Shown here piece after piece: positions 1-14,384 of a stretch of 21,679 bases of DNA (position 1 is its first letter; every line of letters begins with the position of its first letter). The DNA lies in IMG/VR virus record IMGVR_UViG_3300017969_000174, positions 1 through 21,679 of that record. The stretch is one strand, 5' to 3'. The position numbers and the translations under genes are program-made. The DNA is from a virus. Under the pieces are notes generated by a model, which saw nothing but the letters and a program-made list of their open reading frames with translations, ran no database searches and was not told the origin of the DNA.

Positions 1-3000
1 AGACGAATTTTTATCATACACCTTAATAGGATCGCTATGATAATGATATATTCCATCTTCTTGAGGATGTCCACTGCCGTCATCAATACCTAATTCCTCA
101 TGACTTTCAACTGCATTAATTGTGTACGTTGTACCATTAAGGACTTCGGTTTCTGCCGCTTTAGCATTAAAAATTGCAACACCATTTATAGCAACACCAA
201 TCGGTCCTAATGGAGTTTCTGTTTTAGTTGTTGGTACCGCAGGAAATCTCGGAATTTGGAAAACAAAATTTTGTCTTTCAACATTTGTTTGTACAAATGA
301 ATGATCTGGAATACCTGTGCTATCCACATAAAAATACAAATTATCATAATCCGTTGTTACGATATCTCTAAACGGAGTGGTTTGAACTATTTTAGGTTTA
401 TCTTCTCTACCACCACTGATAACAACAATAGGTGCTTCTGTATATCCTTCGCCCGGATCACTGATTTCGATTCTTGCTACGTTGTATTTGTAATTGTCAA
501 ACCAATGAACATAAGGTTGTTCTGTAACCAAATCACTATTTTCGTTAACAACCGTCCATTTTTTAGTTGTTTCATCAAAGAAACTAGGTAAATCAAAGTC
601 AGTAGTTCCTATTGGGTTGTTTTCTAAATTATCATATCCAATTACATATTCTCTTAAAGTGCTTGAATAAGGTTTAACTTCATCGATATATTGTTGTAAG
701 AAACTTGGATCTTGAATATTGTAATTTACTTTTCTTGAGAAACCTCCAAGATTGTTTTTAACATCAATTAAACTGGTCTTAAATGCCCAATCAACAAAAC
801 TTTGTTCTTCAATAGCATATCTTAATCCTATAAAGAACATTTCATTCCAGGCATATTTTAAATCATCTACAAAAATACTATTGTTTAAAACATTAAGAAT
901 TAATCTTGTTTCTTCGTTAGGTTGCTCATCAAATAAGTTTTGATCAAACGTTTCTTCGCCTGCAAAACCAAAATTTAAACCTGAATAGTCAAAAAGATTA
1001 TTATTAAATCTAATAGTACTATTTGCTTTATACATAATATCATATTCTTCGTTCCATGTACCATTAGACTCAACACGTTTAAGAATGATAGTATTACCGT
1101 CACCAGCATTATCTATCTGTACTAGATCTCCAGTTACAGGTTTAATTGTATCTAATTTATAAGGTGCTGAAATTTTAAAGTTTACAATACTATCAGTATT
1201 AAAACCGTCAACTACATAATCTGCATAATCCCAGAACCTATTTAAATCAAATGTTTGTGTATTTGTTCTTACCCACTCGCCAACAGCAACTCTCCATTCA
1301 TACATAGTCCAATAATTGCCTGCCGTTGAATCAGCATTAACAAGAGTTTTAAATGGACGCATATGAATATTGCCAAATGTATAATTACGTCCTTCTCTTA
1401 AGACTTCGATGTTAGTAACTCTACCATCACTATCAATCGTTGATTTAAATTTAGCGCCTGATCCTTCAGCAGAAACTTCAACTTCAGGAGCAATTTTATA
1501 TCCATATCCTGAATTTGTAATTGTTACAGATTTAATTCTTCCATTAACAATATTTGCTGTTGCTGTTGCTTGTACAAGATCTTGTGTTTTTAATGTTTGT
1601 AAATCTTCTACTTCATCAACCTTAACATCATATTTTCCTGAGGCTTCATTTGGTTGTGGATCACTAACAAATAAACCACTAATGTCTTTTTGATCAACAA
1701 TTCTATGCTTAGCCATCAAATCGTTTGTGTATTTCATTAGGGCCGTTACAGCACCTAAACGATCAACAAACATACTTTGTCTTGGTCTAGTAGAAATACC
1801 GTATTTCTTTTGTGGTGGAAGATTTGGATCAGGCACAGCATTACCTTGATCATCAAATCCAACTAAACTATCAAAGAATTTGTTGATAATTGATGGATAT
1901 TCAATTTTATCTTTTTGATTTTCACCAACCAACAACCATTCGTTATGTTCCGGAATATCTGTTTTAATATTTCTATATTGCACAGATAGACTTACACTTT
2001 CATCACTAAGTGTAGTTTTAATATTACTTAAACTAAAACTTTCTTTAGAAAGTAATTGTAAACTTTTAATACCATACGCTTGAGGACTTGCAATGATTGT
2101 TGCTATTTCTCTTGCTGGTAAAGATCTATTATAATTATTATCAGGAATGATAACACTATTTTTTACCCAGTAGTAGTATCTGCTAACAAAGTTTCCTGTT
2201 GCTGAATTATAAACTCTTTTTAACACATAGGTATTATCGTCATATTTTGTAACACCACTGAACCCTGCTGTAACTCCTTCGTTTGAATCAGCAATAGCGT
2301 TCCATTCGCTAGGTAGTAAATCTGTTTCTACCCACTCATAAATGTCAATTTGTGAACCAGGAAATGCTGATCCCCAATTGTTTAAACGATATTCTATATC
2401 GCCTTGTTCATACCACATAAATCTTACGGTGCTTAAATCCCACCACAACTCTCCAACATGTGGATCAGTCCAATGTGTTAATCTATCAGCATTAACGTCT
2501 GTTCTATTTGTTGTCGTATATGTAGCAGGATCCTTTTCACTTTTATATGTAATTTCACTTTCAACGATGTATGGAAGTTTTCCTTTTATAGGATCTACCG
2601 TTTCTAAGAAATCAACAACACTTTGTTTGTCTGTTCTATATGTAAATGCTTTTCCGATGCTGTAAGGATCAGTTAAATCATCCTGTTGTCTTAATGTGTT
2701 CCATCCTGCTGTGGCTTGTTTTTGATACACAAATAATGATCCAGTATAACTTCCTTCCACAGGATCAGCACCCGGTGCACCAACATATATGCTAGTTTCA
2801 CTATATGCTAGTCCCATACCAAATTCATCATTTGGTCCAGCATTACTATTATTAATTTTTTGTCCGTAAACAAAATAATCACCTAATTTTGTATAAGTGT
2901 ACGCAGTTCCTGATCCTTCAACTTTATCAATAATTTTTGTGGATCCTGCATCAAATGTCGTTGCTTGATCTTTTTCTCCACTAGCAGGATCATTTACATA

Positions 3001-6000
3001 TATTGTTCCGTATTTTGTAAATGCATCATCGTATGCTTCTTTATAAACATCTAGTGTTGTTTCTGTTTCATTCTTACCACTAGCGGCTCCAACTACAACA
3101 GAAGTACCTGTTGGATTAACAGCAAGTGTTGACCCAAAACTTTCACCGCCGGTTGCTTTTGGACTTGTTATTTTTTGTACAAAAGTATACATGTCTTTTG
3201 TACTTTCATCTGAAGTATTTTCAAATATGTAAACTTCGCCTTGATTTGATTCCACATCGTCGCCATATGGTGCACCAATAACTAGTGTTTCGCCTTTTTT
3301 ACTAATTGATAAAGATGTACCTAATCTATCACCTACGGCTAATTCACCTATTGTGCTAGTATTAATTGTTTGTACTAAGTCATACTCGTTTCCTACAAGT
3401 CTATAAACATAGACTGATCCTGTATTAAGGTCGCTTCCGCTATCTTTACCTGGAGCACTTATAACAAGTATTTCTTGATCATCACTCATTACCATTGAGT
3501 ATCCAAACTCGTCATCGTTGTTTAGTGTTTCAGGTGCTTGAATTGTTGGGAATGATGCAACTTGCCAATCTAGTGTACTTCCGTCTGTTGCTGTTCCTAA
3601 TATATAAGAATAAACTTTACCTTGATTGTTATTTGCTCCAGGAGCACCTACATGAATTCTGTTTTCTCCTATTACAACTGAATAACCAAATCTTTCATTA
3701 CTTGCTGGACTTTGTGAAGCAATTACATATTCTGTTTCATATAAATTACTAATTGTGTCATACTTACTAACTTTTACTATACCTTGATTTTCAAACGCCG
3801 AAGCACTTGAAGCAATATCTGCATAGATAAAGTTTGGCCTTGTAACATCGGTCGTTTGTTTTACATTAGATGCATATGGTGCACCTGCAATAATCCTATC
3901 GCCAGTTGCGTCAACATCAATGCTAAATCCAAACTTAGGTCTCGCACCCAATACTAAATTATCACTAGCATTATCACTAATTGCGTAACCTTGATTTTGT
4001 TCTAGTGTAGCAATTGAAGTATTTGTTTTTCTACGTAAAATGTTTACAGATCCTTCATCACCAAAGTCAGGTGCACCAACAATAATTGTTCTACCTTGAT
4101 TAGCATACTTGATGACTTGACCATATCGTATCCTGTCGCTTGTTGCTGGTGCGCCGAATTCGTTTTCTACAAATGCTTTTGTCTTTTCATAAACAATCCA
4201 GTTACCTGCTGTGTCATTATCAGCCCAAATTTTAGATCCTGGTGCAAATTCACTAATGTTTCTAACATTGTTTATTTCGTTTGATGTAGAAACTCTAGCA
4301 TTTACAAATTCTAATATTGTACCTGTTGCACTATCATTGTTTAGATTAATACTTAATAAGTCTGTTGCTATTGTAAATGATACTAAATCAGGAACACTTG
4401 TTACAATATGAACCCCATTAATTTGATTATCAAAATCCTTAATACTAATCGTAGTTCCTTCCTCCAATCCATGAGGAATATTTGTATGTAGAACTATATT
4501 TCCGTTATCAATTGAAACCGGAGTATCTTCTGGATTTATTAATCTTGCATCACTTACTAATAATCTGTATATTGTCCAAGTATCTTTTTCATCACGTGCT
4601 ACCCAAATAGTATCACCTTCATCTAATGTAGGAACAAGAGTATTAGTTGATAATTCTGACTTATCAAATAATGTCATTGTAACATCATCAAGTCTTGCAT
4701 AACCTGCATAAGGAAGTTTTAATACTGATGTTAAGGAAACACCTTCTTCATTAAAATTATAAACAGGCCACGGTTTGCTGGTATAGTTTGCAGGCTTAAC
4801 CGTTAACTCTCTTGGTAACACTTGAATAACATTACTAGATGTTGAACCCGATACTTTTGTGTTAACAAATTCGTATGGTTGTGGATTTTCAACATTTAAT
4901 CTTTCATTAAGAGGTAATTCAAGTTCTTTAATAGTTGAATTGCTTCCTAGACTACCAATTTTAAACGCCCATAAAGAATCTACTTCGACATCTGTCGGAA
5001 CACCGTCGATTTGTAAACGTTGTATTTTATCAATGGCGGTTTTTGTTCCTTTTTCTTTAATATAACCTTGATAGAATTTGTATTGTGCTATTTCATCAAT
5101 AATTAAATTATCTAGATAATCACGTTTTTGATAACCAATTAAGTGTTGTGCTAATTCTGTTGCCTCTGTATCAAAGTTTTCACTTTCTAAGGAATAAAAA
5201 TCCTCGTAACTATATGCTTTATAATCTAAATTAGGTAATAGTTCTGCAACAGGCTTATTACCAATATAAACCCAATCTTCGTAAACAAACTCTGATTCTC
5301 CTGGTAAAAACTTAGAAGCACTATAAAATTTACTTTTAAATCTTACAACATCGCCAATATTATAATCCCATCCTGGCTTCCAATCTTGTATTACTGCCTC
5401 GTCAAATACAAATCCTGGTGTTACAAAATCTCCGTTCCATTCACTTGTTTTAAACCCTACAAGTTTAATACGCTTCTGTCTATATCCTGCTTCTTGATCG
5501 TAAAGCACGTCACCAAAAGAACTTCTATCATCAAATACAATAACATGTTCATGTTGAACAAGATTAAGTACAGCAAAGTAAAGACCCCTTGCTGTATCTT
5601 TAGGACTTAGATAAAATTTTCCTTTTGAACGTATTGTTGAAATACTATCCTTAGGCATAGGTGTACCGTTTGCTGTAAGAATACTATATTCATAAAAACT
5701 ATTCAATACATTATCTACCTGTCCTGTTGTGTAATTAAATTCAATCTGTTCTGCAAACGGAGACAAAGAAATAATCGTTCCTTCTGCCCATTTTTGCGTT
5801 ACCCAGAATAAAAATTCTTTTCCACTTAGATCCCAGTTTTGCATTTCAAGACTTTCTTTTTGATAGTTGTCAAAAACAAAGCCTAAACTTTCTAAATATT
5901 TTCCATAACCTCGAATAACATCATATACTTCTTGTACCCTTGTAAATTTTGTACCATATTGAACTTCTGTTATTCTTTCAGCAAACTTTGTTGCTTTAAT

Positions 6001-9000
6001 AACTTCGGCGCCACCGCTTGTAGGAACTTCTGGTATACTAGCAAATTTAGATCCATCAAACGTTGCTGTACTTGTATGACTTTCTTTTACTCTATAATAC
6101 TTGTCAGAAAATTCAACAATCTGTCCTACACCGTAAAATTTTTCTTCATCCCATTGTACGGTTTTTGCTTGTTCCCCTCCGACATTAATCGAAGAATCGT
6201 TTTTAGTAGTAATCGGTTGAAAAATATTAAAATAAGGTCTTAACTTATCATATCCTCGAACGATAAATCCGTCAGTTGCTTTTTCAACAATGATACCACT
6301 AATTCTAACACTTTCTACAGGATTAGATTTTCTTAAAACAAGTGTATAATTTTCTTCTGGAAGAAAAACACTATTATCTGCACGATTAGGATTTGAACTT
6401 TCTGCTAGTACACGTAAACGTTTTTTATTAGCAAAGCCGCCTAGTTTATATGCTAAATTCATAGATGTATTTGTAATTTGACTATAATAATTGTCATTTA
6501 CATCTTTTCCTAATCCTTTTAGGAAGTCTGTTATCATTACGTGATAACCTGTTCCTTTAAATCTAATATTATTGTAGTATAGACCGTCGACTTTTACTTC
6601 TGGAAAACTTAAAATTTTTCCGCTATCTTTGTAAATTAAATTTCCACTTGCTGTAATTACATTTTGATTTGTATCAAATAATGACCCAAAATATTTTGCA
6701 GGACGAGTAAGTGCTAATGCAATTTGTAAAGCAAATGGATACCAACTTGATTTTCTCCATGCTGTTTCTGCAGGACCTTGATCTCCATATTTCCAGGGAT
6801 TTCTAACATTAACAACACTAAATCCTTTTAGAATATTGACCCTTGACGGATCAATTAAATCACCGTATTCGTCAACAGGAATGTTTTTACTTAATCCCGG
6901 TCTCGCATAAGTTTCGTCAATATATGTTCCGTTAGGATCTTTAATTCTTCCTGCTTCAAGATCGTTCCATAAAATTTTATTACCATTTGTGTAAGGTGCT
7001 TTGCCGTACACATCATCCCACCATGTAGGTTTTATTGTCATTCCTAACATTTCCCATGGATGGGTATGCGGACGATCTGTATCAAAATAATGTTTGTAAA
7101 TTCCTCTCCAGAAACCTGGGACAGGATTATTATCAAGATTTACAACCGTATTATAATTGTAACTAAATGGACTTTCTAAATCTGTTGTGGAATTTGTTTC
7201 AGCATCAATATTAAAAATTGATTTCCATTGACCGAAATCGTTTCTTAATACTTCATCAAGTTCTCTTGCTGTGTATTTTGTTTTTCTATAATAACCAGGT
7301 ATTTCATCAAAAACATCAAGTACATTTTTATTGTATTCAACCTTGATATTATTATAGATACGCTTTTCAAATTCTAATAGTAATGCATCGCGTTCATCGC
7401 CGTAGGTTTTTGTAATAGACCCATCATGGCCTTGTAATACTTCCTGAGACGTTGCATAGGTGTCATCTAGATAAATTTCTGGTTTATATTTTGGATACAA
7501 TCCTAACTTTGTTGGCGTGTTAGGAATAACGTTACCTGTTGTGTCATAATCCGTAATGATAACAACGTCACCTTGTTTTAATGTTCTTTTGATTGTTACC
7601 GTATTATCAATACCATCAAACTCGTAATCTTCATGTGCAATTAACTGCTCGTCATTCAAATAAACATAAACAGAACGATCGCTTATTTCTTCAAGCGTAT
7701 ATGCACTATCAATACCAAAAACATTTTGCGTTGCTGTTTTTACCGTATACGTTCTAGTGCTAACTTTTTTACCATATCCTGCCATGTCACTATAAAAGTA
7801 ACTGCTTGACGGTGTTTTATCAACGCCTAGTGAATATAAAATATTATCAACATCGACTTTAACGTCACCTGTTAAAGGAGTTTGGTTAACCCTATCTAAA
7901 AATTTATCTTTGAAGAATGAATAATCACTAGCATTCTTCCTAATTGCATTAATAAAATTAACACTTTCTAAGTTTAACCCAACTAGCGATGGTAATAAAG
8001 ATCCTTTGTGTTTTACATAACGTAAGCCGTCTTTAAAAATATCCTGTAAGTCTCTAGAGTTATTAATTCCATTAACTTCGCCTTTTAAATTAGAATTATT
8101 TAAAAATATAGTTCTAAAATGATCAGTCACGCTACCTAAAGTAAATGTTTTAAGATCGTTATTTTCTGCATTATTTGTTAAGTTAATAGGCGGTTCATAA
8201 AATCCTTGATCGTTAGGTATTTGATCTGTTTTAATTTTTAATGTAACTTTTGAATCTGCAGGAATACTTTCATTAAAAACTAATTTGTATGATCCTCTAA
8301 TGGTATCAATTTCTTTTGTAAAGTCTGTAACTTCTTTTAAAATTTTTCCTGAATATTCAACAACAATATCTAGATCATATTTCCATGGTGTATCAATACA
8401 AGTAACTTCTAGGGTATTTGTTTCAGCAATAACATTTAAGATCTGTTGTACACGTTGATCTGTTGTTTTGTTTTCAACTATTTGCCATCCGCTAACAAAC
8501 GTCGATGTTGCGTCTGCATTATTAATTTTTACCAAACCACTTGCTGTATCTACATCATATTTTGTATCGTTTGTAATCCAACTAAACTTGGAATCATCCC
8601 AATCAAAGTTAAATGTAATATCACCAACGTTATTAATGTTCTGATAAGAAATTGGAAAACCTAATGCACTATCGTTTGTGCCTGTTCCTCTTTTATAACT
8701 AGCAATAGCATTTCCCACAAAATCTGTTGTAGGATATCTATCCTCATCGGAAAATGCAATACCATCTGAATTGTATAATTCAAAAAGAGGTGATTGATTT
8801 AATGTTGTTTTTTGTTGTCCACGAATCCACTGCGATCCGTCAAAATACCAACTAGAACCTTGATTATTTCTTCCATCTTTAACAACAATACCCTGACCTT
8901 GTGTTGGTGTTGTTTTTTCAATTAAATGAACTCGCTCAACTCCATTATATTCTACAAAATCTACTTCGAAAATTTTTCCTTTTACGGTAATATCCGGATC

Positions 9001-10437
9001 AGCATTAAAAGATATTAGCATTCCTTTTCTAAGAAGCACTTCATCAACATGGTAACCGAACGATCCTTCAACATTGCTCATTGCATCTTTGGTGCTTGTA
9101 TCAATTAAATCAATATTTTGTAGTCCTGTTACAGCAAAATTGTGTAATTGTATATTTGCTTTAAATTCTAAAATAGGTCTGATGGCTCTGTAGTTTTCAT
9201 CAAGTACCGGAGTTGCTTGATTATATTCTGCTGTTTTTTCGATTACATCTTTATGAACCCATCTGTTATATCTTGACCATGGATTTTTATCAATTGATGC
9301 TCTATTAATTGTAACATACTCAGGCGTTAATGGACTATTTTCTGTATCGTCATAAGGAGTATCATCAAACGGATCAACGTCAAATTCATAATCTTGGTTT
9401 TGAGAATAAGATTCTGGAGTGTTTAATTCACTTTCGTCAATTAAATTAATTTCTGTTCCAACACCTTCGACATAAAAATTCTTGTTTTTATATTTTGACG
9501 GAAGAACTTCACCGATAAATTGAACACGCATACCATTAGTAAACTCAACATTGTTTTTACTAGTAAAGGTTGATTTTCCAATAATTTCTTCTTCTACATT
9601 AATTTTAAAATCATCTTTGGCATTTCTTACTTCAAAATAACCTTGCATGTTCTGATGATATTGACATGCATAATAAATTCTATCAGGGGCATCAATTGGC
9701 ACCGTAATTTCAATAGTGCCTTTATCAGTTCCATTGTTGGTAACCCCAGTGCTATAACGATCACCGATACCGGTTGTTAATGCTGTTTTAAGATTAAACG
9801 GATGACCTTCCGCATCAATTTCAAGTTTGTACGTAGCACCTCTATATAAAGTTATCGTTGGATTTTTAGTAAAACCGTTTGGCGTAAACACATACGCATT
9901 TTGTCCATCATTTGTAACTTTATATGTACTGATTGATCCACCGGCGTCACCAGAAACAAGAACCGGAGACGGTCCTTCTGGCATCCAATAATATTGTCTG
10001 TAGTTTACAAATTTATCAAAATCAAATAACGGGTTCCATGCATAGTATTCTGATTCGAATAATCTTTCATGATTGTTTGTTTTACCATTAAAGAATTTAA
10101 TTTGATTTACTAAATCGTCGTAAGTTGCTATCCACTTGAAAACATCTTCCTTAGGTTCTTTAATAATAGCAGAAGGTAAAAAATTATATCTCCTTCTATT
10201 TGCTGTTATTTCTGTAACATAAGTGTCTGTGGCTTTAGAATTTTCAGTGTTTCTTGCACCAACAAATCCATTAATTCTGTCAAGAGTTCCTGTTGATATT
10301 AAAGAATCTAAAGTACTGCCTAAGAATTTTTTGTTTGCTTCCGTACGGAAGAACATAGGCAACAGATCAGCACTATTTCGTAACTTATCTTTATTTTCTA
10401 TGTTTACAGGAGTACTTTCGTTCTCACTATATGCCAT
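1..10437 (-). CDS. Giant multi-domain virion baseplate protein in the gene 7 position (3' end beyond the window)
   Basis: The frame is open from ATG at 10437 to the left edge: 3,479 codons with no stop, so the C-terminus is missing. CGGAG lies 8 nt before the ATG, and gp6 ends 14 nt upstream. Visible parts in order: a cupredoxin-like domain (about residues 170-272); long stretches resembling giant structural proteins of marine T4-like phages (for example HPWEMLG and KPTWW near a YGKAPYT motif); two CBM-like W/Y/GD modules (about 1429-1470 and 1686-1726); a PHGLEEG motif (about 1990); seven FG-GAP-type repeats (about 2100-2570); two GxGYxxAP motifs; and a YHYH motif (3464-3467). Position after gp6 suggests a wedge or peripheral baseplate protein, like T4 gp7 (about 1,030 residues), but I see no clear similarity to T4 gp7 itself. 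No signal peptide or membrane segment is evident. Virion role is confident; exact role is inferred. Confidence 0.85.
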   Translation of the reverse strand, partial: MAYSENESTPVNIENKDKLRNSADLLPMFFRTEANKKFLGSTLDSLISTGTLDRINGFVGARNTENSKATDTYVTEITANRRRYNFLPSAIIKEPKEDVFKWIATYDDLVNQIKFFNGKTNNHERLFESEYYAWNPLFDFDKFVNYRQYYWMPEGPSPVLVSGDAGGSISTYKVTNDGQNAYVFTPNGFTKNPTITLYRGATYKLEIDAEGHPFNLKTALTTGIGDRYSTGVTNNGTDKGTIEITVPIDAPDRIYYACQYHQNMQGYFEVRNAKDDFKINVEEEIIGKSTFTSKNNVEFTNGMRVQFIGEVLPSKYKNKNFYVEGVGTEINLIDESELNTPESYSQNQDYEFDVDPFDDTPYDDTENSPLTPEYVTINRASIDKNPWSRYNRWVHKDVIEKTAEYNQATPVLDENYRAIRPILEFKANIQLHNFAVTGLQNIDLIDTSTKDAMSNVEGSFGYHVDEVLLRKGMLISFNADPDITVKGKIFEVDFVEYNGVERVHLIEKTTPTQGQGIVVKDGRNNQGSSWYFDGSQWIRGQQKTTLNQSPLFELYNSDGIAFSDEDRYPTTDFVGNAIASYKRGTGTNDSALGFPISYQNINNVGDITFNFDWDDSKFSWITNDTKYDVDTASGLVKINNADATSTFVSGWQIVENKTTDQRVQQILNVIAETNTLEVTCIDTPWKYDLDIVVEYSGKILKEVTDFTKEIDTIRGSYKLVFNESIPADSKVTLKIKTDQIPNDQGFYEPPINLTNNAENNDLKTFTLGSVTDHFRTIFLNNSNLKGEVNGINNSRDLQDIFKDGLRYVKHKGSLLPSLVGLNLESVNFINAIRKNASDYSFFKDKFLDRVNQTPLTGDVKVDVDNILYSLGVDKTPSSSYFYSDMAGYGKKVSTRTYTVKTATQNVFGIDSAYTLEEISDRSVYVYLNDEQLIAHEDYEFDGIDNTVTIKRTLKQGDVVIITDYDTTGNVIPNTPTKLGLYPKYKPEIYLDDTYATSQEVLQGHDGSITKTYGDERDALLLEFEKRIYNNIKVEYNKNVLDVFDEIPGYYRKTKYTARELDEVLRNDFGQWKSIFNIDAETNSTTDLESPFSYNYNTVVNLDNNPVPGFWRGIYKHYFDTDRPHTHPWEMLGMTIKPTWWDDVYGKAPYTNGNKILWNDLEAGRIKDPNGTYIDETYARPGLSKNIPVDEYGDLIDPSRVNILKGFSVVNVRNPWKYGDQGPAETAWRKSSWYPFALQIALALTRPAKYFGSLFDTNQNVITASGNLIYKDSGKILSFPEVKVDGLYYNNIRFKGTGYHVMITDFLKGLGKDVNDNYYSQITNTSMNLAYKLGGFANKKRLRVLAESSNPNRADNSVFLPEENYTLVLRKSNPVESVRISGIIVEKATDGFIVRGYDKLRPYFNIFQPITTKNDSSINVGGEQAKTVQWDEEKFYGVGQIVEFSDKYYRVKESHTSTATFDGSKFASIPEVPTSGGAEVIKATKFAERITEVQYGTKFTRVQEVYDVIRGYGKYLESLGFVFDNYQKESLEMQNWDLSGKEFLFWVTQKWAEGTIISLSPFAEQIEFNYTTGQVDNVLNSFYEYSILTANGTPMPKDSISTIRSKGKFYLSPKDTARGLYFAVLNLVQHEHVIVFDDRSSFGDVLYDQEAGYRQKRIKLVGFKTSEWNGDFVTPGFVFDEAVIQDWKPGWDYNIGDVVRFKSKFYSASKFLPGESEFVYEDWVYIGNKPVAELLPNLDYKAYSYEDFYSLESENFDTEATELAQHLIGYQKRDYLDNLIIDEIAQYKFYQGYIKEKGTKTAIDKIQRLQIDGVPTDVEVDSLWAFKIGSLGSNSTIKELELPLNERLNVENPQPYEFVNTKVSGSTSSNVIQVLPRELTVKPANYTSKPWPVYNFNEEGVSLTSVLKLPYAGYARLDDVTMTLFDKSELSTNTLVPTLDEGDTIWVARDEKDTWTIYRLLVSDARLINPEDTPVSIDNGNIVLHTNIPHGLEEGTTISIKDFDNQINGVHIVTSVPDLVSFTIATDLLSINLNNDSATGTILEFVNARVSTSNEINNVRNISEFAPGSKIWADNDTAGNWIVYEKTKAFVENEFGAPATSDRIRYGQVIKYANQGRTIIVGAPDFGDEGSVNILRRKTNTSIATLEQNQGYAISDNASDNLVLGARPKFGFSIDVDATGDRIIAGAPYASNVKQTTDVTRPNFIYADIASSASAFENQGIVKVSKYDTISNLYETEYVIASQSPASNERFGYSVVIGENRIHVGAPGANNNQGKVYSYILGTATDGSTLDWQVASFPTIQAPETLNNDDEFGYSMVMSDDQEILVISAPGKDSGSDLNTGSVYVYRLVGNEYDLVQTINTSTIGELAVGDRLGTSLSISKKGETLVIGAPYGDDVESNQGEVYIFENTSDESTKDMYTFVQKITSPKATGGESFGSTLAVNPTGTSVVVGAASGKNETETTLDVYKEAYDDAFTKYGTIYVNDPASGEKDQATTFDAGSTKIIDKVEGSGTAYTYTKLGDYFVYGQKINNSNAGPNDEFGMGLAYSETSIYVGAPGADPVEGSYTGSLFVYQKQATAGWNTLRQQDDLTDPYSIGKAFTYRTDKQSVVDFLETVDPIKGKLPYIVESEITYKSEKDPATYTTTNRTDVNADRLTHWTDPHVGELWWDLSTVRFMWYEQGDIEYRLNNWGSAFPGSQIDIYEWVETDLLPSEWNAIADSNEGVTAGFSGVTKYDDNTYVLKRVYNSATGNFVSRYYYWVKNSVIIPDNNYNRSLPAREIATIIASPQAYGIKSLQLLSKESFSLSNIKTTLSDESVSLSVQYRNIKTDIPEHNEWLLVGENQKDKIEYPSIINKFFDSLVGFDDQGNAVPDPNLPPQKKYGISTRPRQSMFVDRLGAVTALMKYTNDLMAKHRIVDQKDISGLFVSDPQPNEASGKYDVKVDEVEDLQTLKTQDLVQATATANIVNGRIKSVTITNSGYGYKIAPEVEVSAEGSGAKFKSTIDSDGRVTNIEVLREGRNYTFGNIHMRPFKTLVNADSTAGNYWTMYEWRVAVGEWVRTNTQTFDLNRFWDYADYVVDGFNTDSIVNFKISAPYKLDTIKPVTGDLVQIDNAGDGNTIILKRVESNGTWNEEYDIMYKANSTIRFNNNLFDYSGLNFGFAGEETFDQNLFDEQPNEETRLILNVLNNSIFVDDLKYAWNEMFFIGLRYAIEEQSFVDWAFKTSLIDVKNNLGGFSRKVNYNIQDPSFLQQYIDEVKPYSSTLREYVIGYDNLENNPIGTTDFDLPSFFDETTKKWTVVNENSDLVTEQPYVHWFDNYKYNVARIEISDPGEGYTEAPIVVISGGREDKPKIVQTTPFRDIVTTDYDNLYFYVDSTGIPDHSFVQTNVERQNFVFQIPRFPAVPTTKTETPLGPIGVAINGVAIFNAKAAETEVLNGTTYTINAVESHEELGIDDGSGHPQEDGIYHYHSDPIKVYDKNSS
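28..84 (-). other. YHYH-family motif at the end of the visible giant protein
   Basis: The last readable stretch contains DDGSGHPQEDGIYHYHSDP. A GHP, then an acidic DG turn, then YHYH is the signature of the YHYH domain family (Pfam PF14240), whose function is unknown. The four-residue core is residues 3464-3467. The domain may continue past the window edge. Confidence 0.65.
2725..4140 (-). repeat. Seven FG-GAP-type protein repeats (predicted beta-propeller) in the giant protein
   Basis: Residues about 2100-2570 hold seven units of the form (F/Y/L)G-S-x10-15-(V/I)xGAP followed by a G-S/K-V-Y-Y strand. Their cores are RYGQVIKY..IIVGAPD, KFGFSIDV..IIAGAPY, RFGYSVVI..IHVGAPG, EFGYSMVM..LVISAPG, RLGTSLSI..LVIGAPY, SFGSTLAV..VVVGAAS and EFGMGLAY..IYVGAPG. 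Units are mostly about 60 residues apart. Seven such repeats is the number that closes an integrin-alpha type propeller. The acidic metal loops of integrins are weak or absent. They are degenerate at DNA level, so this is a protein repeat, not a simple DNA repeat. Confidence 0.8.
5260..5382 (-). other. Carbohydrate-binding-module-like stretch 2 in the giant protein
   Basis: Residues about 1686-1726 contain WKPGWDYNIGDVVRFKSKFY, followed about 15 residues on by EDWVYIG. The W, Y, GD.V, K.Y and terminal W spacing is that of a CBM5/12-like module and matches stretch 1. Sugar binding is inference. Confidence 0.45.
6025..6153 (-). other. Carbohydrate-binding-module-like stretch 1 in the giant protein
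   Basis: Residues about 1429-1470 begin WDEEKFYGVGQIVEF and continue SDKYYRVKESHT. The W...Y..GQ.V...YYR order resembles the short aromatic CBM5/12-type chitin-binding fold, which is common in phage tail proteins. No structural confirmation is possible here, and the pattern is short. Confidence 0.4.
9622..9930 (-). other. Cupredoxin-like domain with a complete type 1 copper ligand set (inside the giant protein)
   Basis: Residues about 170-272 of the giant protein read as a small beta domain: a strand with NPTITLYRGATYKLEI, then GHPF, a TGVTNNGTDKGTIEITVP stretch, and YYACQYHQNMQG. His212 (GHPF), Cys258, His261 and Met264 match the ligand order of blue-copper proteins. The C-x2-H-x2-M spacing is the same as in amicyanin. 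Related RG-T-rich domains occur in marine phage structural proteins, as I recall them. The ligands are seen directly; copper binding is inference. Confidence 0.7.
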
Positions 10438-10451: not shown

Positions 10452-13400
10452 TTAATAATTGTTCTCACTGCTATTCGCAGAGGATGAAACTTGTATATTA
10501 CCAATACTATCGACTGCTGTTACAACATTACCAGTTGCTTTAAGATTGGTTGCTGTAATTTGATCAATAATATCAATGTTGTCAACGGTAGCGGTGCTAA
10601 TGAAAACTTCATCTGCTTTACTTGTTATCTGATACATTGATCCAAAACTTTGTGTGCTTGATCTAGGAACAATAACAAAGTTAGCAACATCAGGTGCTGT
10701 TTCTTGTTGGATATAAGTTGCTAGTTCAGTAAAATAAAAACTATCTCCAAAGTCCCAATTTTCAATATTAAAGAAATCATTTATCGCTGTAATAACTTTA
10801 CTTTTAATTTCGTTATCACTAATTGTTGAGTTATCATTTTTAACAATTTTAAATGTTGCTTGTAATGAAGTATCTGCATCAGCGCCAAACAAAGGTCTGT
10901 AATTTACAGAATGATATATAATTTCATCTGATAAACTTTTTACAGGATCAAGCACCGGTGCTAATTCCTGTTTAAGACTTTGTGATGTTGGTGCTACCGG
11001 CAATGTTCCTACGCCGTTAACGTATGCTCTAAATTCATCGTCATAGTTTTTAGATAAAACATACATATCAATAATATTTGTCTTACTAGGATCGATACGT
11101 CTGTCATTTTGTGCATTATGAATATATTGGAATTTAATATTATCTCTTCCAGGTCTAGCAAAATAACTAGTATCTAAATCTAATGTACCAGTTGTTGAAT
11201 TGTAAACCTTAATAACATCCTCTAAATCATTATAAAAATAAAATAGTTGACCATTTGTATAAGGATCTAAATCTGTAACATTTGCTTCTCTATCAAAAAT
11301 AACAAAATTATTAGAATCAATTTTTTCTGTTACTTGGTAACCTTCAACGGTTGTTGTTCTAAAAAATACAAAGTTAGTTAGATAACCTCTACTATCTTCT
11401 GTATCAGGTTTTACAATATTAATAAATGAATCTGGATCGTCGATCATTCCGTCATCATCACCGTCATAAAAATTAATACGAACCCTATTTGTTTCTTCGA
11501 ATCCGTCTGTATTTCTAATACTACCTACAATTTCCCACTGATAATCTTTTTGTAGTATGCTATCTAAAACAGGGTCTTCGTTGACTTTAAGGACCTTAAT
11601 TTGATCTTTAATAACCAATCCTGTTTCACTATCAAACTTTTTAATTCCTAGGTCAACAAAAAATTGAATTAAATTTTCACTTTCAAATCTATAATCTAAT
11701 CCTCTATATGTTACGGAATAAGTTTCTCCATCTGTTTCAAATAATACAAACCAACTCTTATCTGCTTTAGCACCTGTTGTATCACCTTGACGCTCTAAAC
11801 TAAAATCATCTTTGGTATTTAGGTTTGCATTAACAATAATTTTCCAAGTTTGTGTTTCTTGATCGTAACGAATACCAAATGTTTTATAATTAAACACAAG
11901 ATCAACAAGTTGTGTTTCTAATTCAACAGGAAGATTAGTAACAATTGGTGGTACTAATTCCTGTGGTACCGCCAGTGAAGGTATATTTTCGCTTAATACA
12001 ATCGGTCCTGTTCCATCATCTAAGTTACCTCGACCGCTATTAGAACCATCGCCGCTGACTTGAACCACTTTTGTCCAAATGTAATCTGTTGTTTTTTTAG
12101 TTTTTGTATCTGTTAGTGTTCCGTCTGGCAAAAAGTATTTTCCTTCTGGCGGAGTAAACTTAATCATTGTATCGGGTTTAATATACTGGAAATTATTACT
12201 AGTAAAACTACCTACCGTAATAGGCGCACCATTAATATTATTACGAAAATAACCCGTGCTACCATTTGAAATTGTAGTTGCTAAGGTCCAGTCGATATTA
12301 ATATCACCTGTAAGTACTCTCGGAAACTTATCTAAATAAAATGCTTTTGTTGGTAAACTTTCAACAACCGGTTCAACTCTATTTCTAATAATTCCTAAAA
12401 TATCATTTCTTGTTTGCCAAGTAAAAGTAAAATCATTTTCAAAATAGTTTTTATATAAAATACCATCATCGGCAATTAAGTTTGTTGACGAATATTTTCC
12501 TGTTGGATCTGTAATTTCAAATTGTCTTGAAATTCCTGAACTAATTCTGTTTACTGCTTTTACTTTAATAACATTATTACTTGCTGACAACGGATAAGCG
12601 TTATAGTCTTCTCCTGTTATCATTCTATTTTGTGTATAGAATGCCTGTGGAGCGTTAGTTCTAATATCTTCTGTTGATTCAGAACGTGTTGCATTAGTAA
12701 CGGTTGTTTGTAAACCTAGTTGTATTGTTAATGTATTTCCTTGTCCTGACTTACTAAAGTATGGAATTGTTAAAACAATATTCTGTAGGTCATTAGGTCT
12801 AATAGTATAACTTAAACCGTTTGATGATCTAAAGTATGTTCTAAAATTTCCTTTTGGTAAATCACCAAAGGTTCCGTCAGCAAAATTTAAACTAATCTGA
12901 TCATCGTTTCTTGTATTAACACTATAAAGTGTTCTTGTGTTTTTATTAATACTATTGTAAATTACATTACTTCCGTAAACTGAATTTAAACTGGTCCATT
13001 CAGTTGTTAAATTATTATCCCTATCACGTTCCCATAACCATACATCTGTTTGATTTATGTTAGGAGAATCGATATTAATGATTTCATTTGGACTTGGGTC
13101 TGTAATAGTAAAGTTACTATTTTGCATTTCCCCTTGTACAAATCTTAGAAAGAATCCTGTATTAGGAGAACTATTTCCTCGTTTATCATTTTTGTAGACC
13201 ATTGACAATGTTGATCCTGGAAGTGGCGATTGTTCTAAAAGGGCATTGTCTTTTATGTAAGAACTTGTAATTTCAAAATTCATGTTTCTTCCAGCAACGG
13301 TTTTACTAAATTCATATAAAGGAACATCTATATTTTGTGTGTTTAACCTATAAATGTCTGTTGTAATACCGTCAATAACTCCAGACTGATTTGGCTTACC

Positions 13401-13910
13401 AAACACGGTAGTACCGTTCATGGCACTATTCATTATTACGGTGAATTGCTCTAGCCAATTAGTATTTGTGTCATCGTTCCATGAAATAATTCTATTGCCA
13501 ATATTATTTCCTAAACTATCTTGAACATTCTCAGTTGTTTGTATTCCTATAATTTTTAACAATCCTGAAGCAGATGTATTACGTTTAGGATTGTATCCTA
13601 CTAATCTTGCAAGTCGTAAAACTGAACTGCGTTTTTCGGCTAATTCAATAAAATTTTCTCTAGCATTTAAATCAAATCTGTATGATAAACTTTGACCCAA
13701 GAATGCAATTAAATCAATAAGTGCCAAATACTCAGTTGATTCAATATAATCGTTAAAATCTTCTGGATAATTCTTACGCAGATAGTTAATCATGGTTCTA
13801 CGCAAGGTAGGAAAGTCATATGAAGCAAAATCTGCATCAGCAAATGCACGATAAATTTTACTCCAATCTTGGTTCGCTATTAGCGAATTTTGTCTATTTT
13901 TACTGGCCAT
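10452..13910 (-). CDS. gp6: Baseplate wedge protein gp6 (enlarged)
   Basis: Gp6 forms the wedge dimers that hold the T4 baseplate ring together. The product is 1,152 residues, against about 660 in T4. The N-terminal part (about residues 20-110) has the family pattern: YRAFADADFASYDFPTLRR, then STEYLALIDLIAFLGQSLSY and NARENFIELAEKRSSVLRLA. The core (about 335-445) has LNFADGTFGDLPKG and ITGEDYNAYPL, both typical of gp6. The large C-terminal extension contains an EF-hand-like loop (816-827). The gene lies 42 nt after gp25 and 14 nt before the giant gene. There is no Shine-Dalgarno sequence. A promoter-like box ends 5 nt before the ATG, so translation may start on a nearly leaderless message. 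The identity is confident; the start is slightly less so. Confidence 0.93.
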   Translation of the reverse strand: MASKNRQNSLIANQDWSKIYRAFADADFASYDFPTLRRTMINYLRKNYPEDFNDYIESTEYLALIDLIAFLGQSLSYRFDLNARENFIELAEKRSSVLRLARLVGYNPKRNTSASGLLKIIGIQTTENVQDSLGNNIGNRIISWNDDTNTNWLEQFTVIMNSAMNGTTVFGKPNQSGVIDGITTDIYRLNTQNIDVPLYEFSKTVAGRNMNFEITSSYIKDNALLEQSPLPGSTLSMVYKNDKRGNSSPNTGFFLRFVQGEMQNSNFTITDPSPNEIINIDSPNINQTDVWLWERDRDNNLTTEWTSLNSVYGSNVIYNSINKNTRTLYSVNTRNDDQISLNFADGTFGDLPKGNFRTYFRSSNGLSYTIRPNDLQNIVLTIPYFSKSGQGNTLTIQLGLQTTVTNATRSESTEDIRTNAPQAFYTQNRMITGEDYNAYPLSASNNVIKVKAVNRISSGISRQFEITDPTGKYSSTNLIADDGILYKNYFENDFTFTWQTRNDILGIIRNRVEPVVESLPTKAFYLDKFPRVLTGDINIDWTLATTISNGSTGYFRNNINGAPITVGSFTSNNFQYIKPDTMIKFTPPEGKYFLPDGTLTDTKTKKTTDYIWTKVVQVSGDGSNSGRGNLDDGTGPIVLSENIPSLAVPQELVPPIVTNLPVELETQLVDLVFNYKTFGIRYDQETQTWKIIVNANLNTKDDFSLERQGDTTGAKADKSWFVLFETDGETYSVTYRGLDYRFESENLIQFFVDLGIKKFDSETGLVIKDQIKVLKVNEDPVLDSILQKDYQWEIVGSIRNTDGFEETNRVRINFYDGDDDGMIDDPDSFINIVKPDTEDSRGYLTNFVFFRTTTVEGYQVTEKIDSNNFVIFDREANVTDLDPYTNGQLFYFYNDLEDVIKVYNSTTGTLDLDTSYFARPGRDNIKFQYIHNAQNDRRIDPSKTNIIDMYVLSKNYDDEFRAYVNGVGTLPVAPTSQSLKQELAPVLDPVKSLSDEIIYHSVNYRPLFGADADTSLQATFKIVKNDNSTISDNEIKSKVITAINDFFNIENWDFGDSFYFTELATYIQQETAPDVANFVIVPRSSTQSFGSMYQITSKADEVFISTATVDNIDIIDQITATNLKATGNVVTAVDSIGNIQVSSSANSSENNY
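11430..11465 (-). other. EF-hand-like calcium-binding loop in gp6
   Basis: Residues 816-827 read DGDDDGMIDDPD. Acidic residues fall at loop positions 1, 3, 5, 9 and 12, with Gly at 6 and Ile at 8, which is the canonical EF-hand/dockerin loop pattern. It sits in the C-terminal extension that T4 gp6 lacks. Calcium binding is inference. Confidence 0.6.
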
Positions 13911-13952: not shown

Positions 13953-14384
13953 TTAGAAGTTTGCGTTAGAGCGATCAAAGTTAAGTCGCAATGCTTCGCT
14001 AACGTTATATTCAACAAATGATAACACACAGGAAACCTGAATCCCATAATCCTTTTCTACTACTTCCATCGCATCTATACGTATGCGAGGATCACCGTCT
14101 ACAATAGCGATAATATCGCTAACAATTTGTTGTCGAACGTTTTCTGTAAATGGTTCAAACAACAAACCCCATATAATTGTACCAACATTTGGTTGGTAAA
14201 TTTTTTCACCTTTTTTAATGTGAAAATGATTAACTAGATCTTGCTTGATTAGTTCTATATCATACAACTTATGATTCCTATTACCCGAAATAGTGCTCAT
14301 TCCTCTATATATTTGAGAAGTTCGACCAGTGTTACCTTTGTTGGTTTTATTAGGTTTAATTGTGATGTCGTTATATCTAGCCAT
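13953..14384 (-). CDS. gp25: Baseplate wedge protein gp25
   Basis: Gp25 is a small wedge protein at the point where the sheath meets the baseplate and is the relative of T6SS TssE. The product is 143 residues (T4: 132). The recognisable core is VNHFHIKKGEKIYQPNVGT, then IIWGLLFEPFTE, and GDPRIRIDA, where DPR (98-100) stands at the family's EPR motif. The N-terminal 30 or so residues are basic and polar. It starts 11 nt after the gp5 stop and precedes gp6 by 42 nt. The ribosome site is poor: GAGAGG lies about 16 nt upstream, farther than usual, so translation may depend on coupling to gp5. Identity is confident. Confidence 0.92.
   Translation of the reverse strand: MARYNDITIKPNKTNKGNTGRTSQIYRGMSTISGNRNHKLYDIELIKQDLVNHFHIKKGEKIYQPNVGTIIWGLLFEPFTENVRQQIVSDIIAIVDGDPRIRIDAMEVVEKDYGIQVSCVLSFVEYNVSEALRLNFDRSNANF

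Follow-up and report, generated by a model that had tools for sequence, protein, structure and literature searches.

A predicted type 1 copper site in a mobile cupredoxin-fold module of a giant virion protein from a jumbo-phage relative

The window (the whole 21,679-nt stretch of viral DNA analysed here) carries a minus-strand series of baseplate-type genes that encodes gp6-, gp25- and gp53-like wedge subunits, a gp5-like hub protein and further virion proteins. The gp6-like wedge subunit (10452..13910, minus strand; phrog_10646, E 2.5e-299) has the jumbo phages Phosso, Atu_ph07 and RaK2 as its nearest named relatives, and a gp25-like wedge subunit (phrog_261 and phrog_43) is encoded at 13953..14384 on the same strand. 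Positions 1..10437 (minus strand) hold a frame, read from 10437 to 1 and open at the window end, for a giant virion protein of at least 3479 aa (phrog_10938, virion structural protein); the matching frame in the close relative G495 encodes 4646 aa. Because the neighbours are of gp6, gp25 and gp53 type, and because homologous giant virion proteins adjoin gp6 in related phages, we label this product a putative baseplate protein. A cyanophage identity of the virus was considered, since cyanophage proteins are the closest named relatives of the cupredoxin domain described below, and was ruled out: gp6 and the remainder of the giant protein match Phosso, Atu_ph07, RaK2 and PA5oct relatives, which makes the window virus kin to these phages by sequence.

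The giant protein contains a CBM_5_12 carbohydrate-binding module (6064..6156, minus strand; Pfam E 1.1e-7), four FG-GAP repeats (the best at 3223..3339, minus strand; Pfam E 2.2e-28) and the start of a YHYH domain that is cut by the window end (10..261, minus strand; Pfam E 1.8e-14). The YHYH domain, which is full length in G495, is a second candidate metal-binding module on the same chain; zinc binding and a role as a metal-dependent tail-associated hydrolase have been predicted for it (PMC7824862).

Near the N-terminus, residues about 168-272 (about 9622..9936, minus strand) form a predicted cupredoxin-fold domain, delimited by an AlphaFold2 model, PDB fold matches and a 38-row alignment (A1). 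Translation places the putative copper ligands exactly where the original prediction had put them, in cupredoxin order: His212 in a G-H-P-F motif (9802..9804), Cys258 as the putative thiolate ligand (9664..9666), His261 (9655..9657) and Met264 as the putative axial ligand (9646..9648), all on the minus strand and all assigned from translation and from conservation among relatives. The last three follow C-x2-H-x2-M spacing. Only two cysteines occur in the 3479 residues of the giant protein, and Cys258 is the sole Cys of the domain, which can therefore form no internal disulfide. The pattern H-x25-60-C-x2-H-x2-6-M is found once in the giant protein and in none of 2000 shuffles of the same protein.

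Modelling of the domain by AlphaFold2 with 38 relatives gave a pLDDT of 90 and a pTM of 0.82, and revealed a Greek-key beta-sandwich that matches solved cupredoxins. All 50 of the PDB fold matches listed for this model are cupredoxin folds (best E 3.8e-6; TM-scores about 0.4-0.6), including AcoP, rusticyanin, nitrite reductase, plastocyanin, pseudoazurin, laccases and CuA domains. In the model, His212 falls between two strands and Cys258 closes the penultimate one, while His261 and Met264 belong to the loop that leads into the last strand. Type 1 copper proteins place their ligands in the same way. The claim of a complete type 1 ligand set on a cupredoxin fold is thus borne out at the level of translation and model. 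A 450-residue model covering the N-terminus of the giant protein was poor outside the domain (mean pLDDT 53) and was set aside.

Sequence comparison reaches the accepted copper proteins less directly. Searches of PDB sequences with the single domain and with its profile found no cupredoxin, although the fold search did, and a Pfam search of the window domain alone gave no match, with the PF00127 Copper-bind cut-off not reached. Profile-profile comparison with 14 plastocyanin-family proteins gave an alignment (E 1.7e-6) that pairs Cys, His and Met and leaves the first His two positions out of register. A small exported picocyanobacterial relative scores 26.4 against PF00127 (curated cut-off 21.2), and by this score it is a sequence bridge from the domain family to accepted copper proteins. 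In alignment A1, 22 of the 38 members also show a weak match to Pfam PF25489 (At5g54830-like domain; best E 6.6e-8), which may point to kinship with that plant domain.

The window domain shares with type 1 cupredoxins (plastocyanin, amicyanin, rusticyanin, AcoP) the beta-sandwich and the order of a His followed by Cys, His and Met, but differs from them in forming part of a virion protein that is thousands of residues long. The plastocyanin/azurin group constitutes PF00127, whereas the window domain is without a Pfam match, and the first-His motif of plastocyanin is of P-H-N-V type where the window domain has G-H-P-F. We take the latter motif to resemble the H-P-x-H of multicopper oxidases, in which the first His binds type 1 copper. 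The proposed likeness to amicyanin held for the length of the C-x2-H-x2-M loop and no further: native amicyanin is absent among the 50 listed fold matches, which include only chimeras carrying an amicyanin loop, and we do not assign the window domain to the amicyanins.

Ligand conservation was assessed in 200 distinct instances of the domain drawn from four viral_contigs scans, named phages and bacterial genomes. All four ligands (H-C-H-M) are kept in 146 of them, exactly three in none, two in 3, one in 27 and none in 24, and both histidines are missing in all 54 relatives that lack the full set. Because the ligandless instances were gathered with a ligandless query, 146:54 does not estimate frequencies in the population. 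Free loss of the Cys or Met among homologues had been named as evidence against a copper site, and no homologue has lost one ligand alone. After removal of near-copies, 72 full-site and 26 ligandless rows remained. A tree built without the ligand columns (few columns, quick search) requires two ligand changes, one in a viral clade around L056 (SH-aLRT 100) and one in the Flavobacteriaceae-group protein L103. The ligands therefore co-vary as a unit. Retrieval bias was considered as a source of this conservation and rejected: each distinct scan sequence checked held a ligand-free pattern, except 22 gp9 copies, which were retrieved solely through a ligand-containing pattern. A large viral clade (L116-L195) keeps the fold signature with the copper ligands missing.

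Full-site domains of phages and bacteria are about 40-50% identical to the window domain and keep the Cys throughout, and both synonymous codons are in use at the His and the Cys ligand positions. This persistence of the ligands across wide divergence with synonymous codon changes speaks against the earlier suggestion that the site is a relic. The fold and the ligand conservation are well beyond chance. We read the all-or-none pattern as a sign that one functional site is under selection and is lost entirely once the function goes; because independent losses are few, the covariation supports metal binding but does not prove it.

Alignment of the N-termini of giant proteins showed that the domain directly follows a conserved stretch ending in Y-Y-W-M-P-E-G-P. 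At that position, four uncultured relatives, from close to more distant (L004, L024, L047 and L058), carry a full-site domain, L056 has the domain without its ligands, an unrelated stretch takes its place in Sinorhizobium phage Phosso, and next to no sequence is there in Pseudomonas phage Ettore. The domain position in the giant protein is, on this alignment, a plug-in site. Since four states occur at one site, the copper site would not be required for assembly of this virion class; the ligands look selected, yet not essential for building the virion.

Beyond these viruses, the distribution indicates that the domain is a mobile module reused in many phage tail proteins. Named relatives amount to 344 records, mostly from Synechococcus and Prochlorococcus phages, with the domain in gp9-type connectors (Syn9, P-SSM4), in Bellamy gene 29 and in a tail fibre-like protein of P-SSM2; the podoviruses P-GSP1 and P-SCSP2 are also carriers. 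In uncultured viruses it is further found in collagen-repeat fibres and next to RCC1 repeats, some proteins have two copies, and its position varies among tail proteins. Contrary to the original expectation that such a domain would be unusual in a virion, it is frequent among the tail proteins of aquatic phages, cyanophages included. The cyanophage gp9-type baseplate wedge tail fibre connector (phrog_677) has a homologous domain with all four ligands; there the domain forms the C-terminus of a T4-like cyanophage protein some 400 aa long, whereas in the window it lies inside the giant protein of a jumbo-phage relative. The Syn9 and P-SSM4 proteins that follow the gp9-type connector (L085:3325-6312 and L086:3259-6246, both plus strand) match weakly and have a C-x2-H-x2-M stretch of their own. 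In the viral structure library BFVD, the domain model matched cyanophage peptidase S8 proteins. BFVD also contains matching beta-sandwich proteins from relatives of Pithovirus and Marseillevirus (E about 1e-8 to 1e-6).

Cells have the domain too: Flavobacteriaceae and picocyanobacteria carry it in exported proteins (21 of 201 genomes sampled for the family around L089, 5 of 201 for that around L090). Flavobacteriaceae secreted lipoproteins with CHRD or related repeats (L089, L095-L102) have the same domain at the C-terminus with all four ligands; these are cellular, exported proteins with a putative copper function, in contrast to the virion protein of the window. Secreted lipoproteins of the Flavobacteriaceae group that combine CHRD-type repeats with the C-terminal domain include L089:2279-4312 (plus strand), L095, L096 and L097. 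Small exported single-domain relatives are encoded by open frames in picocyanobacterial genomes (L094, minus strand, 148 aa; L114, plus strand, 139 aa); L094 has C-x2-H-x4-M spacing and passes the Pfam Copper-bind cut-off. Because exported bacterial relatives exist, capture of the domain from a host is plausible, with transfer possible in either direction.

We propose that the domain is a copper-binding mobile cupredoxin module that serves as a surface-exposed host contact on a giant adhesin-like protein beside the baseplate wedge of a jumbo myovirus, a reading that we consider probable and hold with moderate confidence. The domain would bind a single copper ion, acquired either inside the host or once the cell has lysed, and would project from the baseplate as a metal-stabilised surface. 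There it would touch the host envelope together with the other modules of the chain (CBM_5_12, FG-GAP and YHYH), and it is these neighbours that suggest exposure at the surface and contact with the host. Such a role does not need electron transfer, which is unsupported for this domain. Viruses with the full-site domain probably carry copper on their tails. Against the proposal stand related viruses whose domain at this position lacks the ligands and in which, judged by these sequences, copper is dispensable; the offset of the first His in the profile alignment and the small number of independent losses also weigh against it.

The strongest rival to a copper-dependent host contact is a metal that only stabilises: copper (or zinc) would only fasten the beta-sandwich loops, keeping the decoration intact outside the cell while doing nothing at the host surface. 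Placement of the module at varied positions in many tail proteins is what a robust building block would show, and a zinc-bound cupredoxin-like protein (4hcg) is among the listed PDB fold matches, but the ligandless version at the same place argues that a metal is not needed to keep the domain in this protein. We regard a purely structural metal as possible but appreciably less likely than host contact, with which it may co-exist. That the four residues are instead a fold-linked sequence signature, in virions that carry no metal (for example, when assembled without available copper), seems improbable to us. Metal binding is so far a prediction from sequence and model, and persistence of the ligandless version would fit such a signature; all-or-none retention of four sequence-distant residues in phage and bacterial proteins of such moderate identity, the use of both synonymous His and Cys codons, and retention in the whole full-site set of a Cys that can form no disulfide within the domain argue against it. 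A redox or sensor domain, whose copper site would swap electrons with a partner on the host surface or sense the envelope at attachment, matches the electron-transfer sites that this ligand set forms in known families found by fold, but is very unlikely given that Pfam recognised no redox partner or second cofactor domain in the giant protein and that modular spread in fibres and connectors suits binding better than electron transfer.

Copper-site proteins of the cupredoxin kind are electron carriers and enzyme parts. What appears new, from sequence and model, is the setting of this accepted copper-protein domain in a virion: we found no description of a cupredoxin in a phage tail in the open-access papers searched, and databases may already label cyanophage proteins cupredoxin-like through automatic annotation. 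The nearest published idea is, by analogy, iron on phage tails, in which HxH sites of tail fibres such as T4 gp37 bind iron and are proposed to serve host contact, linking phages to ocean metal chemistry (the Ferrojan or Trojan Horse hypothesis; PMC11705849). Both cases place a metal on the phage tail with a proposed part in host contact; the gp37 sites hold octahedral iron between His pairs in a fibre, whereas the window domain has a predicted H-C-H-M site of cupredoxin type. One could speculate, at long odds, that copper-loaded tail and baseplate cupredoxins are general in aquatic phages and engage the host envelope or its copper-uptake machinery as a counterpart to the Ferrojan Horse. If this were true, some of the protein-bound copper of natural waters would reside in phage particles.

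Full-site and ligandless versions at one position of a baseplate-region protein amount to a natural experiment, and the question can be put to a direct test in cultured cyanophages, whose gp9-type proteins carry the site. Cyanophages, podoviruses and jumbo-phage relatives all keep the complete site in tail proteins, and metal chemistry may thus aid the survival of aquatic phages or their binding to hosts.
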